Assembly (NCBI GenBank): GCA_023269235.1
Contig: JAHFTW010000002.1
Location: forward strand, 183,294 to 247,293
Direction of reading: 5' to 3'
Length of the DNA stretch: 64,000 nucleotides
Source of the DNA: Thermoplasmata archaeon
Lineage (GTDB): Archaea; Thermoplasmatota; E2; JACPAO01; JAHFTW01
Positions within the stretch are counted from its first letter, which is position 1; each line of letters starts with the position of its first letter. The notes under the pieces are model-generated. The model ran no database searches. It saw nothing but the letters and a program-made list of their open reading frames with translations, and was not told the DNA's origin. Of the stretch, positions 45,244 to 63,468 are shown one piece after another. The translations under genes were made by a program, and so were the position numbers.

Positions 45244-45717
45244 CTACTCCTTGAGCTGGGCGTCGAACTCGCCGGCGGCGATGGCCTTGCTCATCTCCTT
45301 GGCGACGCGGCCTTCGACCGTGACGCCCATGGAGCTGCAGGTGCCGACGACTTCCTTGACCTTGGCCTTCAGGGTGGCGCCGAGGAGGTCCTTGCCCTTC
45401 ATCTCGACGATCTCCTTGGCCTGCTTGATGGTGAGGTTGCCGACGGTGGCCTTGTTCGGGGTGCCGGAGCCCTTCTCGATCTTGCTCTTCATGAGAACAA
45501 GCTGGCTCACGGGGGGAGTGCCGACCTCGACGGTGACCTCCTTCTTGTCGTCGATGATGATCTTGACGGGGACCTTCATGCCGGCGTAGGCCTTGGTGGC
45601 CTCGTTCAGCTTCACGACGACTTTGCCGATGTTGGCGCCGGTCGGGCCGAGTGTGGGGCCGAGGGGGCCGGCGGCGACTTTGCCTCCGTCCACGACGGTC
45701 TCGATAGTTTGTGCCAT
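45244..45717 (-). CDS. rpl11: Large-subunit ribosomal protein L11 (uL11)
   Basis: The 157-residue protein is archaeal L11. ETVVDGGKVAAGPLGPTLGPTGANIGKVV is the conserved N-terminal loop that contacts the GTPase-associated centre, and SKIEKGSGTPNKATVGNLT and VVGTCSSMGVTVEGR are typical of the C-terminal rRNA-binding domain. ATG 45717 is set by the ribosome binding site AGGAG, about 9 nt upstream on the minus strand. In front of it is a 134-bp leader with a TATA-like CAAATAG near 45828-45834 and a small hairpin. Usual partners L1 and P0 are not adjacent here. Confidence 0.94.
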   Translation of the reverse strand: MAQTIETVVDGGKVAAGPLGPTLGPTGANIGKVVVKLNEATKAYAGMKVPVKIIIDDKKEVTVEVGTPPVSQLVLMKSKIEKGSGTPNKATVGNLTIKQAKEIVEMKGKDLLGATLKAKVKEVVGTCSSMGVTVEGRVAKEMSKAIAAGEFDAQLKE

Positions 45718-45851
45718 GTGGTTTGCTCCTACCCTTTCCGACGACGGTCGAGCCGTCGCCGTTCCTGATAGTCGCTCGGCGGGGCCGGGCGCACAGGGAT
45801 GGGGCAAACCGCCGTGAGGTGAGGGTCTATTTGACCGCTACGCCGGCCGCG

Positions 45852-49400: not shown

Positions 49401-49425
49401 TTCGGGTGCCGCCCGGTCCCCGGGT

Positions 49426-49749
49426 GTGGCCTCCTGGAAGGACGCGGTGCAGTCTGTCCCCGGGGGCGTGCGCCTCTTGGTGGAGGCCAGCGCCGGCGCC
49501 AAAACCGAGCGCTTCCCGGACGGCTTCAACCCATGGCGCGGCGGGCGCATCGGCGTGCGCGTGCGGGCCCCCGCCCAGGAGGGGAAGGCAAACGAGGCCA
49601 TCGTGCGGCTGGTCGCCGCGTTCTTCGATCTCTCCTTCGCCGCGGTCCGCGTCGAGGCGGGCCACCTGGACAGCCGCAAGACCATCGCGGTCGCAGGCAT
49701 CACGCGTGATGCGGCGTGCGCGCTCCTGGCGCCCCACCCGGAGGCGTGA
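49426..49749 (+). CDS. DUF167 (YggU) family protein
   Basis: The 107-residue protein matches the small DUF167 family of unknown role: GVRLLVEASAGAKTERFPDGFNPWRGGRIGVRVRAPAQEGKANEAIVRLVAAFFDL. The later half is RVEAGHLDSRKTIAVAGITRDAACALL. The GKAN motif is characteristic of the family. GTG 49426 is the start. It is one base from the toprim gene that follows and probably shares a transcript with it. Confidence 0.82.
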   Translation: MASWKDAVQSVPGGVRLLVEASAGAKTERFPDGFNPWRGGRIGVRVRAPAQEGKANEAIVRLVAAFFDLSFAAVRVEAGHLDSRKTIAVAGITRDAACALLAPHPEA

Positions 49750-49750
49750 G

Positions 49751-50164
49751 ATGCGAAAGCCCGCACGCCGCACCGAGGAAGACCGGCTTGCCCTCCTGGA
49801 GGACGCGGTCCAGCGCCTGCGCGAGGCCGCCGAGAGCGGGACCGTGGTCGTCGAAGGCCAACGAGACCGCGCCGCGCTCGACTGGCTCGGCATCGGCGGG
49901 ACGCACACGACGCTCAACCAGGGCGACCCGCTAGACCGTCTCCTGGAGGATCTGGCGGCCTCCGCGCCTCCCATCATCCTCCTGGTGGACTGGGACCGCA
50001 CCGGAGGCCGCCTCCTGGCAAGACTGGAGCCCAACCTGCGCGCCCGCGTCCAGGTGGACACGGATTGCCGACGCCGCCTCGCCTCCTGTTGCCACAGCAA
50101 GACCCTGGAGGAGGTGCCCTCCGAACTGGAGGCCCTGCGCCGCTCCGTCGGCGTCCGCCCCTAA
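49751..50164 (+). CDS. Small toprim-domain protein (UPF0292-like)
   Basis: The 137-residue protein contains a toprim fold: GTVVVEGQRDRAALDWLGIGG with the conserved Glu, then ILLVDWDRTGGRLLARLEPNLRARVQVD with the D-x-D pair. Toprim domains occur in primases, topoisomerases and nucleases. Free-standing archaeal forms of this size are known as UPF0292 and lack an assigned activity. It ends 709 bp before the 16S gene. Confidence 0.85.
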   Translation: MRKPARRTEEDRLALLEDAVQRLREAAESGTVVVEGQRDRAALDWLGIGGTHTTLNQGDPLDRLLEDLAASAPPIILLVDWDRTGGRLLARLEPNLRARVQVDTDCRRRLASCCHSKTLEEVPSELEALRRSVGVRP

Positions 50165-50872: not shown

Positions 50873-52343
<1,471 letters not shown>

Positions 52344-55818: not shown

Positions 55819-55940
<122 letters not shown>

Positions 55941-56050: not shown

Positions 56051-59000
56051 ATGGCGTATTGCCCCCACGGCAACCTGGCCGCGACCTGCTCGCAGTGCCG
56101 CAGTGACGCGGTGCGTGACGCGGAGCGCCGCGCCGCCCTGAACCGTGCCCGGGGTGAGTCGAAGGTCATCGGCCGCGTGGACGACACGGATCTTCCGTAT
56201 CCCTGGCAGCGCCAGTCGTTCGACGCCTGGGTCGCGGGCGGCAAGACCGGTCTCGTGGCCTTGAGCCTTGGCCTCCCGACGGGGGACCTGCCGTTCGCGG
56301 CGATGGGGGAGATCATCAATGACAACCCCACGATGAACGTGCTCGTCGTGTGCGCGCCGGCCGACGTGCCCGGGCTGCGTGCGGAGTTGGAAACCCGGTT
56401 CAGGCTGCGTCCGACCTCTCTCCTCGATCATCATTTCCTCGAACCGCGCGACGACGGAACCCTCGTCGTGGCCGACCTGCAGGAGCTCGAGACGGTCCCG
56501 CTCAACACGTGGGGCCGCTTCGCCAGCACCGGCCTCCTGGTCCTCCTGGAGGCGGACAGCGTCCAGCCCGGCCTCGGCGAGATGCTGCGCGAGGCGCCGT
56601 TTCGACACCGCCTCTGCGTGAGCCGGTTGCCGAGCGCCATCGACCTCACCGCGACGCGCCCCTGGGCGCGCGCCTTCGGCCCTCTTCTCTACCGCTGCAC
56701 GGAGGAGCAGGCGCGCGATTTCGGCGTCCTTCCCCGCATCCAGTACCGGCTGCACGTCGAGACCCTCAAGCCCGAGCCGGAGGCGCGCCGCGCTTTCGGC
56801 CCCGAGGGCCCGTGGGAGGCCACGGACATCCCGCAGGCGATGCGCGTCGCCGAGGCGGGCCCGTTTTTCCGCAGCCGTGCCCGCGACGTCGCCGCGCGTC
56901 GCAGTGCGGCTCTTCCAGGCCTCGTCGTCATCCATGATGGTGTCCCCGTTCCTGGCGCCGCCTCCACCGTCAAACTAGGCGACTTGCCGGACAAGCACGC
57001 CGAGGCCCCCACGGGTTGGTTGCTCGCCATGCCGGCAAGCGACGCCAAGGCCATCTTGCGCCTCGCCACGGTCGCGTTCAAGACGCTCGGCAAGCCCGGC
57101 CTCGTCGAGGACGCGGTCGTCCTCCCGGTCGCAGCGGACCTCTGCAAGGTGCCTCCGTGGAGCGACAAGTGGCGCCTCGCCGCCACCCAGATCGACCGCG
57201 TCGTCGCGGGTCTCCTCCTCGCCGAGAAGCCGGGCGACGCCATGACGGCGGAGGATCTCGAGTCCCTGGTCGGCGGCGCCCTTGCGCTGCGCGGCATCCC
57301 CGCGGACGACCTCTACAGCCTCACCCCTATCGTGGCTGAGGCGGCGCACGCCGCCCATGGCGGTGAATCCGTGAAGCCGGAGCGCGTGCGTCAGGCGGCC
57401 CGCGCCGTCGGCGGCCTCGCCGCATCTCTGCTGGTGGCGGCCGAGCTCGGACCGCTTCATCTCCTTCGTCTCGCGCACCCGCGCTCCACGCCGGTGTCCC
57501 CGGAGCTTCCGCATCCTTCCTTGTACGACGCGCGTCGCCACGCCTGGCGCGGCCGCGCCTTCGCCGCCCTCGCCAACGCGGTCAAGACCGACCTGGTCAC
57601 GGCGTGGGGCCGCTACCCGGAGCTGCGTTTTGTCTTCCCTTCGTCTGCTCTCCTTGAGGCCGCGACGGCGTACTGCGCCAAGCACAAGCTGAAGGGGCCG
57701 CTCGACGACGCCAAGCTGCGCAAGATCCCCGACAAGACGCGCATCCCCACGGGCGGCCGCGCCGACGCCATCGCCGTCCTCCAGGAGTGGAACGGCGCCC
57801 TCGGCCTCGCCGAGGAGCACGAGCGGGAGTTCCTCGCGGACATGCATGCCCGCCAGCCCGAGCGTGAGCGCCGCCGCGAAGGCGCCGCCCTGCCCGACCT
57901 GCGCGTCGTCGAGAAATCGAACGACAGCATCACGCTCGAGGCCAACGAAGGCCGCTTCCCGCCCACCAACATGGCGCCCGGCTCGGAGGTCGCCCTGGTC
58001 GAGGCCGGCAAGCGCGAGGAACTGTGCCGCGGTCTCGTGTCACGCATCACGAGCCGCCGCGTCTTCGTCGAATTCCCTGCCGGCGCGCCGCGCCATCACT
58101 TGCCGCGCAACCTCACCCTCAACCTCGTCTTCGACGCCAAGGTGTTCGAGGCCTACCACTCCGCCGTCGCCGGTGCCGTGCGGGCCATGGCGGCGACGAC
58201 TCCCGTGGACGACGGGCCCGACGGCCTCCTGCGCGCCGCCCTCCTGGGCGAGACCGAGCCGCCCGCCGACATCGCGCAGCAGCTCGAAGGCGAGGAGCTC
58301 ACTTCCACGCAGCGCGACGCCATCAACGGCGTCCTCTCGGGCGGCCGTGTCCGTCTCGTCCTCGGCCCCCCGGGGACGGGCAAAACGCACACGCTCGTCC
58401 ACCTTGCGATGGCGCTCGCGAAGGCGGGCCACTCCGTCCTCGTCACGGCCGATTCCAACGCCGCCGTGGACAACCTCGTCGTCGGCCTGCGCCGCAACGG
58501 CTCGCTCGCCGTGCGCGTCGGGCATGCCCCCAACATCCGCGACGAGAACGCCCAGGCTGCCCGCATCGACCCGCTGGACGCACCGCTCTTCGTGCGCTGG
58601 GCCGCCGAGCAGGGCATCGTCGTCGCGACGACCAACTACGGCGCCTTCCGCTACATCGACCCGAAGGGCGGCCTTTCGCCGTTCATCTTCGACTACGTCA
58701 TCCACGACGAGGCCGGCCAGGCCACGGCTCCGTCCTCGCTCGCCGCCGTCATGCGCGGCCGCCGCCTGGTCCTCGCCGGCGACCCCAAGCAGCTTCCCCC
58801 CACCGTCGTCGCGATGGACGCCAAGGAGGCCGGCCTCGACATCACCCTCTTCGAGCGCATCGAGGAGCTCACCGGCAAAGCGCGCACGCAGATGCTGGAG
58901 ACGCAGTTCCGCATGCGCGAGCCCATCGTCGCCTTCAGCAACGCGCGCTACTACGAGGGCCGCCTCACGACGCATCCGAGCGCCGCCGCGCAAGACGGCC

Positions 59001-60100
59001 TCCCCAACCTCCCCGCCGCCGCGTTCCAGCACGTCACCGGGCGCGAGAACGAGCGCCAGCGCAACGGCTCCATCTCCAACGATTTCGAGGTGGACGCGGT
59101 CGCCCAGCTCGTCGAGAAGTTCCGCTCCGAGCTGCGCGAACGCGGCTGGACGATGGCCGTCCTCTCTCCCTACCAGGCGCAGCGCGAGGCCATCCGCCGC
59201 CGCCTCCCCGACGTCGAAGTCAGCACCGTGGACGGCGCGCAAGGCCGCGAGTGGGACGTCGTCCTCTACTCCACGGTGCGCAGCAACCCGCAGCACCGTC
59301 TCGGCTTCGTCGAGGACGAGCGCCGCCTCAACGTCGCCGTGACGCGCGCCAAACGCAACTTCATCCTGGTTGGCGACGAACGCACGCTTGGCGACAACGC
59401 CGCCTTCGACGCCCTGCTTCGCTCCCTGGAGAAGGTTCGCCTTCTCGAGCTGCCGCGCACCGACGACCGAGGCCGGGGCCGCGACGAGCGTCGCCCGGAG
59501 GGCGACTGGCGCGGCAACCGCGACCGCAACGGCCCCCGCCGCGAGCGCAGCGAGCACCGCGGCCGCGATGCGCAGCAGCGCGACACGCGTCGGCACGATG
59601 ACCGGCAACGCCAGGCGCCCCGCAACGAACCGCGGGCGCCCCCGCCGCGCCACGAGGAGCGCCGCCCGAACCCGCCGCGCGAGAAGCCCGACCCCAAGAT
59701 CATTGACTTTGTCGAGCCGTTCCAGGCGCCGCGCCGCCCGCGCGAGGCCTTCGTCATCCCCGGCAGCGGCCCGTCCGTGACCCCGGCCCTTCCGGCGCAG
59801 CCGCCCGTCGCGCCGCCGCCCATGGCCCCCGCGGACCCGGTGCCCGAGGCCAAGCCGCGCAAATCCCGCGCCAAGAAACCTGAGCGCGAAGCCGCGCCGG
59901 AGCCTCCGGTCGCGCCGAAGCGCAAAGCGACGCAGGCCAAGCTTCCCAGGACGTCGGAGGCCAAGCCCGCGAAGGCGAAGGCGGCCCCCAAGAAGGCGGC
60001 CAAGCCGAAGCCCGACGGCACCTGCCACGCCGTGACGAAGAGCGGCGAACCGTGCAAGCTCGTCGCGAAGGACGGGCTCTACTGCGCCCGGCACGCGTGA
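56051..60100 (+). CDS. Large helicase: decayed SF2-like N-half plus active Upf1-like SF1 helicase
   Basis: The 1349-residue protein starts with a small Cys cluster (YCPHGNLAATCSQC, C4, C13, C16). Residues about 50-220 follow the order of an XPB/RAD25-like SF2 domain (YPWQRQSFDAW, LGLPTGDLPF, VLVVCAPADVPGLRAELE, LLVLLEAD, LCVSRLPS) but the Walker A lysine and the DEAH box are missing. Residues about 750-1130 are an intact Upf1/IGHMBP2-like SF1 helicase: GPPGTGKT (772-779), DEAGQAT (886), GDPKQLPPT (910), QFRM (952), VDGAQGREWD (1060), NVAVTRAKRNFILVGD (1094). A low-complexity Arg/Pro/Lys-rich tail ends in a zinc-binding C-x9-C-x9-C-x2-H. ATG 56051 avoids overlap with 5S. Probably an RNA or DNA unwinding enzyme. 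Confidence 0.85.
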   Translation: MAYCPHGNLAATCSQCRSDAVRDAERRAALNRARGESKVIGRVDDTDLPYPWQRQSFDAWVAGGKTGLVALSLGLPTGDLPFAAMGEIINDNPTMNVLVVCAPADVPGLRAELETRFRLRPTSLLDHHFLEPRDDGTLVVADLQELETVPLNTWGRFASTGLLVLLEADSVQPGLGEMLREAPFRHRLCVSRLPSAIDLTATRPWARAFGPLLYRCTEEQARDFGVLPRIQYRLHVETLKPEPEARRAFGPEGPWEATDIPQAMRVAEAGPFFRSRARDVAARRSAALPGLVVIHDGVPVPGAASTVKLGDLPDKHAEAPTGWLLAMPASDAKAILRLATVAFKTLGKPGLVEDAVVLPVAADLCKVPPWSDKWRLAATQIDRVVAGLLLAEKPGDAMTAEDLESLVGGALALRGIPADDLYSLTPIVAEAAHAAHGGESVKPERVRQAARAVGGLAASLLVAAELGPLHLLRLAHPRSTPVSPELPHPSLYDARRHAWRGRAFAALANAVKTDLVTAWGRYPELRFVFPSSALLEAATAYCAKHKLKGPLDDAKLRKIPDKTRIPTGGRADAIAVLQEWNGALGLAEEHEREFLADMHARQPERERRREGAALPDLRVVEKSNDSITLEANEGRFPPTNMAPGSEVALVEAGKREELCRGLVSRITSRRVFVEFPAGAPRHHLPRNLTLNLVFDAKVFEAYHSAVAGAVRAMAATTPVDDGPDGLLRAALLGETEPPADIAQQLEGEELTSTQRDAINGVLSGGRVRLVLGPPGTGKTHTLVHLAMALAKAGHSVLVTADSNAAVDNLVVGLRRNGSLAVRVGHAPNIRDENAQAARIDPLDAPLFVRWAAEQGIVVATTNYGAFRYIDPKGGLSPFIFDYVIHDEAGQATAPSSLAAVMRGRRLVLAGDPKQLPPTVVAMDAKEAGLDITLFERIEELTGKARTQMLETQFRMREPIVAFSNARYYEGRLTTHPSAAAQDGLPNLPAAAFQHVTGRENERQRNGSISNDFEVDAVAQLVEKFRSELRERGWTMAVLSPYQAQREAIRRRLPDVEVSTVDGAQGREWDVVLYSTVRSNPQHRLGFVEDERRLNVAVTRAKRNFILVGDERTLGDNAAFDALLRSLEKVRLLELPRTDDRGRGRDERRPEGDWRGNRDRNGPRRERSEHRGRDAQQRDTRRHDDRQRQAPRNEPRAPPPRHEERRPNPPREKPDPKIIDFVEPFQAPRRPREAFVIPGSGPSVTPALPAQPPVAPPPMAPADPVPEAKPRKSRAKKPEREAAPEPPVAPKRKATQAKLPRTSEAKPAKAKAAPKKAAKPKPDGTCHAVTKSGEPCKLVAKDGLYCARHA

Positions 60101-60948: not shown

Positions 60949-61173
60949 ATGGCCCTCCTTGTCCACTCCGGCCAACCTGCCCGCCTTGAGCCCCACGCCA
61001 ACCCCTGCACGCCCGACCCGGAGCGGCTCGTGCGCGCCTTCGAGGCGTACAGCACCCACCACGCCACCCTTGGGCAGGCCTCCGTGCTCGCGCACCTGCC
61101 GCTCACGGTCTTCCTCGACGAGGCCCGACGTGCAGGAGTGCTGCCGGTGTACCACGACCCGAGCTGGGACTAA
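60949..61173 (+). CDS. UPF0175-like small protein
   Basis: The C-terminal part of this 74-residue protein (AFEAYSTHHATLGQASVLAHLPLTVFLDEARRAGVLPVYHD) resembles UPF0175 proteins, which have a helix-turn-helix-like arrangement and are often antitoxins or regulators. The N-terminal 25 residues are Pro/His-rich and unmatched, so a later start is possible. It is convergent with the Cas4-like gene, with interlocking stops, and near a VapBC-type pair. Confidence 0.6.
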   Translation: MALLVHSGQPARLEPHANPCTPDPERLVRAFEAYSTHHATLGQASVLAHLPLTVFLDEARRAGVLPVYHDPSWD

Positions 61174-61991
61174 GCGAGTCGCTGGTCGCACGCCGTGCGG
61201 CGGGCGCAGCCGCGGCAGCGGCCCGCCTGCTCGTGGTCGCGGTCGGCCTTTCCTGCCGCTTCGGCCGCGCGCATCCGCTCCAGCGTCGTCTTCAGGTCGG
61301 CCTCGAGAGCGGGCGTCCAGTCCACGCGGAACACCCCGTCCGGGTACTGCAGCATTCCGTACGCCGGGCGTCGCCCCTGCCCGACCTCGACGAGGCGGAG
61401 ATAGCATCCGAGCTGGAGGACGTGGCTGTGGTGCGGATGCTCGGGTGTGTGGCCGCTCTTGACCTCGACGGGCGTCGGTCCGCCGTTTGTCTGAAGGATG
61501 TAGTCGGGGCGCCCCGTGAGGTCCCAGGCCGTGTCCTGCAGCATGGGTGTGTGCTGCGTGAGGTCTGAGGCAAGAAGACGGCCCGGGACGACCCCTGCTT
61601 CCTGTTGGCGGCGGCGGTAGTCGGCTTGCGCGATGAGGCCGATGACGAGGAGGGCGCCGGAGCCGGCGACGAGGACCAGGGCGGTGGTGAGGAAGAGCAG
61701 GTGGTAGGTCGTCGCGTTGAGGTAGAGGAGTTCGACGGTGAGGAAGGTCACGCTGGCGGCGACCATGAGGCCGCGCGAGGCCCACGCGATGGCGGAGCGG
61801 TATTCGCGTTTCTCCCCTTCAATGAGGCCCTGTTCCTTTCCGAGGGCGCTGTGGGCCGCGATGCCACGCTCCGAGGCGGCGCCTTGCCCTCCGGCGCCGT
61901 GGCGCGCCAACCACCAGTTGTGGGCGCAGTAGCCAAACTGTTCCACCTCCTTGGCCGAGGGCACGAGGCGGACCAACGCCATGGACAGCAT
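61170..61991 (-). CDS. Membrane-anchored Cas4-like PD-(D/E)XK nuclease
   Basis: The protein (273 residues) resembles Cas4/RecB-like nucleases. The first cysteine is in EVEQFGYCAHNWWLARHG, followed by GIAAH. The catalytic region is LTGRPDYIL-x7-TPVEVKSGHTP (D and E-V-K), a later HHSHVLQLGCYLRLVE and the C-terminal cysteine triad CRGCARRTAC for an iron-sulfur cluster. Two membrane segments (LMVAASVTFLTVELLYL and HLLFLTTALVLVAGSGALLVI) are inserted after the first quarter, unlike CRISPR-linked Cas4. No CRISPR array is near. The start is ATG 61991 (or 61982). Confidence 0.75.
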   Translation of the reverse strand: MLSMALVRLVPSAKEVEQFGYCAHNWWLARHGAGGQGAASERGIAAHSALGKEQGLIEGEKREYRSAIAWASRGLMVAASVTFLTVELLYLNATTYHLLFLTTALVLVAGSGALLVIGLIAQADYRRRQQEAGVVPGRLLASDLTQHTPMLQDTAWDLTGRPDYILQTNGGPTPVEVKSGHTPEHPHHSHVLQLGCYLRLVEVGQGRRPAYGMLQYPDGVFRVDWTPALEADLKTTLERMRAAEAAGKADRDHEQAGRCRGCARRTACDQRLA

Positions 61992-62043
61992 AGGTCTTGC
62001 CGTCGGGTTGGTGGAACGACATGCGAAGGCCCGTCCACAAAAT

Positions 62044-62064
62044 GTATATTCGCATTGTATATAC
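62044..62064. promoter_or_regulatory. Shared divergent promoter/operator with GTATAT repeats
   Basis: GTATAT occurs at 62044-62049 and again in GTATATAC at 62057-62064, also giving inverted GTATAT/ATATAC arms. Both are TATA-like and lie between the divergent Cas4-like and antitoxin genes. The left box is about 26 nt before ATG 62073, suiting a leaderless transcript. The symmetry would suit autoregulation by the RHH-type antitoxin. Confidence 0.5.
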
Positions 62065-62072
62065 GTCTGCGC

Positions 62073-62285
62073 ATGACGATGGTGTCTGTGCGCGTCCCCG
62101 ACCCGCTTCTTGCCGAGGCCCGGCGTTTTTCCATCAACGTCAGCGCGGCGTTCCGCCATGGATTGGAGGTCGAGCTGCGCAAAGCACGGGTCTTGGCGAA
62201 CGTGGCCACCCTCGCGGCCATCGCCAAGAAGCCGGCGGCCTCCGGGACCGAGCAGGTCCGCCGCCTGCGCGACGGACGGGCATAG
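62073..62285 (+). CDS. vapB: VapB-type antitoxin
   Basis: The 70-residue protein begins MTMVSVRVPDPLLAEARRFS, typical of ribbon-helix-helix or CcdA-like antitoxins, with a first strand (VSVRVP) and a helix (FRHGLEVELRKARVLANVATL). It is immediately followed by a PIN-domain toxin gene (stop TAG directly before the ATG), a typical toxin-antitoxin arrangement. It would bind its own promoter and the toxin. Confidence 0.72.
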   Translation: MTMVSVRVPDPLLAEARRFSINVSAAFRHGLEVELRKARVLANVATLAAIAKKPAASGTEQVRRLRDGRA

Positions 62286-62690
62286 ATGGCCGAGTTCGTC
62301 GTGGACGCGAGCGCCCTCGCGAAGCTGTTCCTCGACGAGCCGGAGAGCAAGGCGTTCCGCACGTGGTATCTGGCCCAAATCCAGCTTGGCGCCGTGTTCG
62401 CGGCGCCAGGGCTTCTTGGCTACGAAGTGGCCCACTTGATGGCGAGGAACCTGGACGTCCCTGCCAAGCCCAAGGACTGGTTCGCGGTGCGGCATGACGA
62501 GGCGTTGGAGGGAATCGTGCTGCACCATCAGATCGCGCGCTTGATCCAGCCGTTCGCCCGCAAGCTCACCGGCTACGACGCCAGCTACATCGCTTTGGCC
62601 GTCGCTGAAGGCGCGGCGTTGGTGAGCTACGACCGCGTCCTGGTGCGGGAAGCCGGGGCACACGGCGTCGCGACCGTGTCGCCGAGCTAG
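62286..62690 (+). CDS. vapC: VapC-type PIN-domain toxin
   Basis: The 134-residue protein is a PIN-domain ribonuclease. FVVDASALAKLFLDEPES gives the first Asp (D7), LLGYEVAH the Glu (E47), LTGYDASYIALAVAEGA the next Asp (D98) and LVSYDRVLVREA the last acidic residue (D116). These form the metal-binding site of PIN toxins that cleave RNA. The gene is translationally linked to the antitoxin and transcribed from the shared promoter. Confidence 0.88.
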   Translation: MAEFVVDASALAKLFLDEPESKAFRTWYLAQIQLGAVFAAPGLLGYEVAHLMARNLDVPAKPKDWFAVRHDEALEGIVLHHQIARLIQPFARKLTGYDASYIALAVAEGAALVSYDRVLVREAGAHGVATVSPS

Positions 62691-62934: not shown

Positions 62935-63468
62935 ATGAAAGCCAACCAAGCCTTCCGCAACGCGGATGAGGCAGTCAGCCCCGTGATCGGCGTCATCCTG
63001 ATGGTCGCCATCACCGTCGTCCTGGCCGCCGTCGTCTTCGTTCTGGTCAGCAACCTCAGCAAGACGAGCGACAAGGGCGAAGACGCCCAGGCTACCATCA
63101 GCAGCCCCGCGTCCAACAAGATTTACCTCACCCTGATTCGTGGCGGCCAGAACTCGCCCTACCAGGTTGCGACCGGCACAACCGGCACTCCCGCAAGCGC
63201 GGCCCAGGACGTTACGATTACGGTCGACAGCAACCCCTGCGTCGTCACGACGGCCAGCACTCCGGCCACCAACGATGCCACGGGAGGCGAGGCCATCCTT
63301 CAGGACAGCAATGGCAACCAGAAGTGGGATGTCGGGGAGACCATCATCATCAACAACATCAACTGCGCTAGCACCCCCGCAACCCTCGGTTCCGGCACCT
63401 CGCACCTTGTGTCCCTAATTGTTCACGGCACCATTCTGCAGGACAACAGCAACGTCGTGATCAAGTAA
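62935..63468 (+). CDS. Archaeal type IV pilin (class III)
   Basis: The 177-residue protein starts with MKANQAFRNADEAVSPVIGVILMVAITVVLAAVVFVLVSNL-type sequence: a short charged leader, then the conserved A-V-S-P-V-I-G processing region and hydrophobic helix of archaeal pilins. A prepilin peptidase would cleave just before the hydrophobic part. The mature domain is Thr/Ala/Asn-rich, with two cysteines (NPCVV and NINCAS) and a possible metal site in DSNGNQKWDVGETI. It is likely a surface filament subunit for adhesion or motility. A second pilin gene follows downstream. Confidence 0.87.
   Translation: MKANQAFRNADEAVSPVIGVILMVAITVVLAAVVFVLVSNLSKTSDKGEDAQATISSPASNKIYLTLIRGGQNSPYQVATGTTGTPASAAQDVTITVDSNPCVVTTASTPATNDATGGEAILQDSNGNQKWDVGETIIINNINCASTPATLGSGTSHLVSLIVHGTILQDNSNVVIK

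Follow-up and report, generated by a model that had tools for sequence, protein, structure and literature searches.

A predicted Upf1-like SF1 helicase fused to a decayed XPB-like SF2 lobe in one order of Thermoplasmatota

The window, the whole 64-kb stretch of DNA that was analysed, lies on contig G000:C9 of a 1.96 Mb Thermoplasmatota genome. Its rRNA operon is followed, after a gap of 110 nt and on the same strand, by a gene for a large fused helicase (Table 1). A longer alternative ORF opens at 55904, a start that would fall within the 5S gene.

Table 1. Features of the fused helicase gene and the adjoining rRNA operon (window coordinates)
Feature	Position	Strand	Basis or remark
16S rRNA	50874-52343		followed by tRNA-Ala, 23S, 5S
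5S rRNA, closing the 16S-tRNAAla-23S-5S operon that immediately precedes the helicase	55821..55940	+	Rfam RF00001, 87.9 bits
Fused helicase gene	56051..60100	+	open frame, 1349 aa plus stop; same layout in relatives L005 and L017
N-terminal Cys/His knuckle CPHGNLAATCSQC (residues 4-16)	56060..56098	+	three-member alignment
Decayed XPB-like SF2 RecA1 lobe (residues 50-247)	56198..56791	+	hhalign, hmmsearch, purifying selection
Motif I in degenerate form, LGLPTGD (residues 73-79), without the Walker A Lys	56267..56287	+	alignment with 15 intact XPB-like helicases
Motif II in degenerate form, LEAD (residues 166-169), with the Walker B Asp substituted	56546..56557	+	alignment with 15 intact XPB-like helicases
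Motif III in degenerate form, SRLP (residues 191-194)	56621..56632	+	alignment with 15 intact XPB-like helicases
Residues 248-599, SF2 RecA2 undetected, no Pfam match	56792..57847	+	62-69% identity to L005
SF1 stalk and 1B-type region (residues 600-735)	57848..58255	+	TIGR00376 match; L053 profile match
Core of the SF1 helicase (residues 736-1125) with every motif intact	58256..59425	+	PF13086, PF13087, PDB 4b3f/4b3g
Low-complexity basic/Pro-rich tail (residues 1126-1320), poorly conserved at 37%	59426..60010	+	codon-position test
C-terminal CHAVTKSGEPCKLVAKDGLYCARHA zinc-like motif	60023..60097	+	weak DUF5763 match, E 0.011, below cut-off

Residues from about 600 to 1125 are predicted to form an intact helicase of the IGHMBP2/Upf1-like SF1 type. 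Pfam AAA_11 and AAA_12 match this part, and the top PDB match is human SMUBP2/IGHMBP2. By inspection of the translation the SF1B set is intact, with motifs I (GPPGTGKT), Ia (TADSNAAVD), II (DEAGQ), III (GDPKQLPP), V (DGAQGRE) and VI (NVAVTRAKR). The TIGR00376 profile (IGHMBP2 helicase) scores 288.7 bits, under its curated cut-off of 348.9. Its positions 19-244 align to about residues 603-835, showing that a 1B-type region precedes the core and, because the match begins near residue 603, that this region belongs to the SF1 module. A match of the N-terminal family profile at 570-698, in G015, sits inside the intact SF1 helicase L053. The active-looking Upf1-like helicase proposed by the initial annotation is borne out, its activity being predicted from sequence. 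The fused protein shares the core, the 1B-type region and all motifs with IGHMBP2/SMUBP2, and differs from it by about 600 extra N-terminal residues that carry a dead SF2 lobe. The same genome holds a second, more distant SF1 helicase (L002, G000:C4:59329-60564), a 923-aa frame with 33% identity to the core.

Pfam gives no match across residues 1-735. A profile built from the N-termini of the three family members, searched against 30 SF2 helicases with hmmsearch, reached its best E value (4e-9, profile positions 53-249) with L046, an intact XPB-like helicase of the same class as the window. In a scan of 390 genomes the profile yielded nine non-family matches, the best being the XPB-like L052 (E 2.7e-8). 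The identities given here cover these matches apart from L059: L052 and L060 are XPB-like SF2 helicases, L054-L056 and L058 are Hef-like SF2 helicases, L057 falls in a locus also matched by the XPB profile (G034), and L053, matched in its SF1 1B region, is the sole non-SF2 protein among those inspected. Profile-profile alignment with hhalign placed residues 50-247 on the XPB-like RecA1 with 97.5% probability (E 6.6e-12). In the reverse search with an XPB RecA1 profile all three members ranked above 900 shuffles, the window's own score being a modest 5.9 bits. By these comparisons, residues 50-247 are homologous to the RecA1 lobe found in XPB-like SF2 helicases. The decayed XPB-like domain originally described at residues 50-220 therefore stands in its homology and motif order; its extent changes to 50-247, with no more than the first RecA lobe still recognisable.

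Archaeal XPB-like helicases (L046, L052, L060 and S. tokodaii XPB) share with the lobe the RecA1 fold, the order of motifs, the FGP-YR hinge segment and GVLP, the dead lobe retaining (F/L)GPx-Y and G(V/L)L. The fused protein differs from them in having lost motifs I-III, in having no recognisable RecA2 and in being joined to an SF1 helicase. In the alignment with intact XPB-like helicases, motif I MATGTGKT is changed to LSLGLPTG, LSLGVPAG and MPASLGLR in the three members, so that GKT becomes PTG, PAG or GLR. Motif II DEVH becomes LEAD, LDAD and DSPE, and motif III SAT becomes SRL, SRK and MAA. All three motifs are destroyed in 3/3 members, confirming the reported loss of key SF2 residues. To our knowledge, all helicases of this kind rely on the missing residues for ATP hydrolysis. 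RecA2 motifs IV-VI were undetectable in all three members, with scores not above shuffles; visual inspection suggested a second SF2 lobe in L017, which did not outscore the shuffles and is not claimed. The remainder of the ancestral SF2 helicase is gone or unrecognisable at the sequence level.

Such losses, an unrecognisable RecA2 and a small distribution would suit a remnant without function, in which the SF2 half of an old gene fusion is just decaying. However, three lineages with identities as low as 24% all keep an intact frame. When the window is compared with L005, codon positions 1/2/3 differ at frequencies of 0.27/0.23/0.46 within the dead lobe and 0.19/0.15/0.36 within the SF1 core; the disordered tail has 0.48/0.47/0.59. 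Because positions 1 and 2 are constrained relative to the tail, the lobe is under purifying selection as a fold without its ATPase residues, and a mere remnant is improbable.

The initial annotation had called for a structure prediction of the N-terminal part. AlphaFold2 with a two-sequence alignment gave no usable model of residues 1-643 (pLDDT 35). With XPB homologues in the alignment, residues of about 50-190 were modelled at moderate confidence (block means 57-78), and the top three PDB matches of this model in Foldseek were archaeal XPB (E 3.5e-6). Since the alignment held XPB rows, the comparison is partly circular; the model is consistent with an XPB-like lobe and is not independent proof of it.

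Cysteine clusters had been noted at both ends of the protein. In the N-terminal one, with the pattern CxHGNLx3Cx2C, C4, H6, G7, N8, L9, C13 and C16 are invariant in 3/3 members across 24% identity. The C-terminal Cys/His cluster is found in the window and L005, the two closest members, and is absent from L017. The N-terminal Cys-His (CH) domain of Upf1 binds Upf2. The fused protein differs from Upf1 proper in having no CH domain by Pfam and only a 13-residue knuckle.

The family has three members: the window, L005 from a sister genus (G002) and L017 from another family of the same order (G003). The two-module layout proposed earlier thus recurs in two further genomes. The N-termini of L005 and L017 are 65% and 24% identical to that of the window. 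The proteins are 1160-1353 aa long, L017 being the 1160-aa member. The profile scan found no further member in 390 Thermoplasmatota genomes, and a pattern search through 84,980 species genomes, sensitive to close relatives only, gave none either. No relatives were found in viral contigs. Among plasmid records none spans most of the protein; the ten matches listed are confined to the SF1 part, and the three haloarchaeal ones that were inspected are proteins of about 740 aa. Other Upf1-like matches in 144 genomes are frames of 643-900 aa that cover the SF1 part alone, and the three compact TIGR00376 members over the cut-off, all outside the order, are frames of 643-709 aa. On present sequences the family is confined to one order of Thermoplasmatota, and the fusion is lineage-specific. 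In G000, G002 (an assembly 79% complete) and G003 the top TIGR00376-type match is the fused protein, suggesting that it has replaced the compact helicase there.

Several candidates were set aside. Seven weak N-terminal matches outside the family in the phylum scan (E 0.002-0.05) were short or interrupted stretches; one weak N-terminal match, L007, is a 929-aa ORF unrelated to helicases. A match in G264 (L018, G264:C1) was treated as likely contamination, as its contig, in an archaeal bin, carries a bacterial-type small SRP RNA and tRNA-Sec.

The neighbourhood of the window gene includes an EMG1/NEP1 rRNA methyltransferase gene (PF03587, 48105-48884, minus strand), about 2 kb upstream of the 16S on the opposite strand, and an L11 gene at 45247-45807. 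Downstream, beyond CarS, an ORF for a PD-(D/E)XK/Cas4-like nuclease (61173-62663, minus strand) lies 1 kb from the helicase. A PIN-domain gene on the opposite strand (62286-62687) overlaps its 5′ part, so the true start of the nuclease is probably further in.

The position directly 3′ of an rRNA operon, noted earlier for the window, holds in both genera of the family (2/2) and fails in G003. L005 has the identical 16S-tRNA-23S-5S-helicase order with a gap of about 100 nt. The two gaps hold stable hairpins (z about -2.5), and no T-rich terminator was detected in that of the window. Co-transcription of the 5S and the helicase is therefore possible. If transcription of the rRNA operon extends into the gene, the protein could remodel pre-rRNA, its dead lobe acting in the manner of Utp25. 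The adjacency in two genera, the gap, the Emg1/Nep1 and L11 genes and the Utp25 precedent (PMC9539457) all favour the maturation or surveillance role put forward in the initial annotation. However, the linkage occurs in two genomes of a single family, and in G003 the 5S rRNA is on a different contig from the helicase. That role is thus a weak hypothesis, and we regard it as unlikely.

The G003 gene follows AddB-like (1059 aa, called by eye) and AddA-like (1335 aa, called by Pfam) genes on the same strand (L098, 12472-19531, minus). XPB itself is a DNA translocase and repair helicase. Hence the fused protein might be a repair or replication helicase partnering nuclease-helicases, its XPB-derived lobe keeping the binding of DNA lesions or duplex; the nuclease gene near the window helicase would fit such a role. 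However, no AddB/AddA-like pair adjoins the gene in the window or L005, and the window nuclease is on the other strand, beyond CarS. A role on DNA is doubtful, if slightly less so than one on rRNA. With the rRNA placement in two genomes and the AddB/AddA placement in a third, context backs neither role firmly.

Mokosh MkoA, an anti-phage defence protein, also has a Upf1-like SF1 core, and PADLOC MkoA models match that of the fused protein (240 bits, E 1e-71). The similarity is, however, confined to the core common to all Upf1-like helicases, for which reason the label was rejected. Mokosh MkoA systems carry a kinase domain or a PLD-nuclease partner. Pfam finds no kinase in the fused protein, and the two ORFs immediately downstream encode CarS and the PD-(D/E)XK protein. 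The gene adjoins rRNA, not a defence island. A defence role of this type is highly improbable.

The evidence is probably best explained by a lineage-specific fusion in which the SF1 part is the sole motor and the dead XPB-derived lobe serves, without catalysis, for docking or regulation. The SF1 part would be the order's own version of the archaeal IGHMBP2/Upf1-type helicase and, judging from its intact motifs, the only ATP-driven motor. The N-terminal part would descend from an XPB-like SF2 helicase that kept its RecA1 fold, lost its ATPase motifs and had its second lobe vanish beyond recognition. Contact with nucleic acid or with a partner most likely falls to the knuckle and the dead lobe, which would form a non-catalytic N-terminal platform, and, in two members, also to the basic C-terminal tail with its zinc motif. 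We infer that these parts probably hold or gate the substrate, RNA or DNA, for the SF1 motor. Since only three members are known, the dead lobe could also be passively tolerated.

Dead helicase modules with a retained function are described for Utp25, a pseudohelicase, for D. radiodurans PriA (PMC4504706) and for Brr2, whose inactive C-terminal cassette acts on its motor (PMC8220420). Like the lobe, they have a helicase fold without catalytic residues or activity. They differ in being free-standing or same-superfamily pairs; in the fused protein the dead lobe and the motor belong to different superfamilies, SF2 and SF1. In Upf1, too, N-terminal domains act on the motor. By analogy, the dead module may regulate or position the motor, as first proposed. 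No described protein found in our literature and sequence searches joins an SF2 lobe without catalytic function to a working SF1 motor. Should the lobe indeed gate the motor, a single polypeptide would show, in a simple and natural form, how one helicase superfamily is reused as the regulator of another. The more specific picture of a cross-superfamily pseudohelicase-motor enzyme, an SF1 RNA helicase co-transcribed with rRNA and using the dead lobe as its docking arm in ribosome maturation, is distinctly unlikely.

Two further ORFs of the window were inspected. The one at 49406-50161, upstream of the 16S, was Toprim-like by eye, received no placement from Pfam and was not kept as Toprim. The other (62935-63465, plus strand) encodes an archaeal type IV pilin (PF07790).
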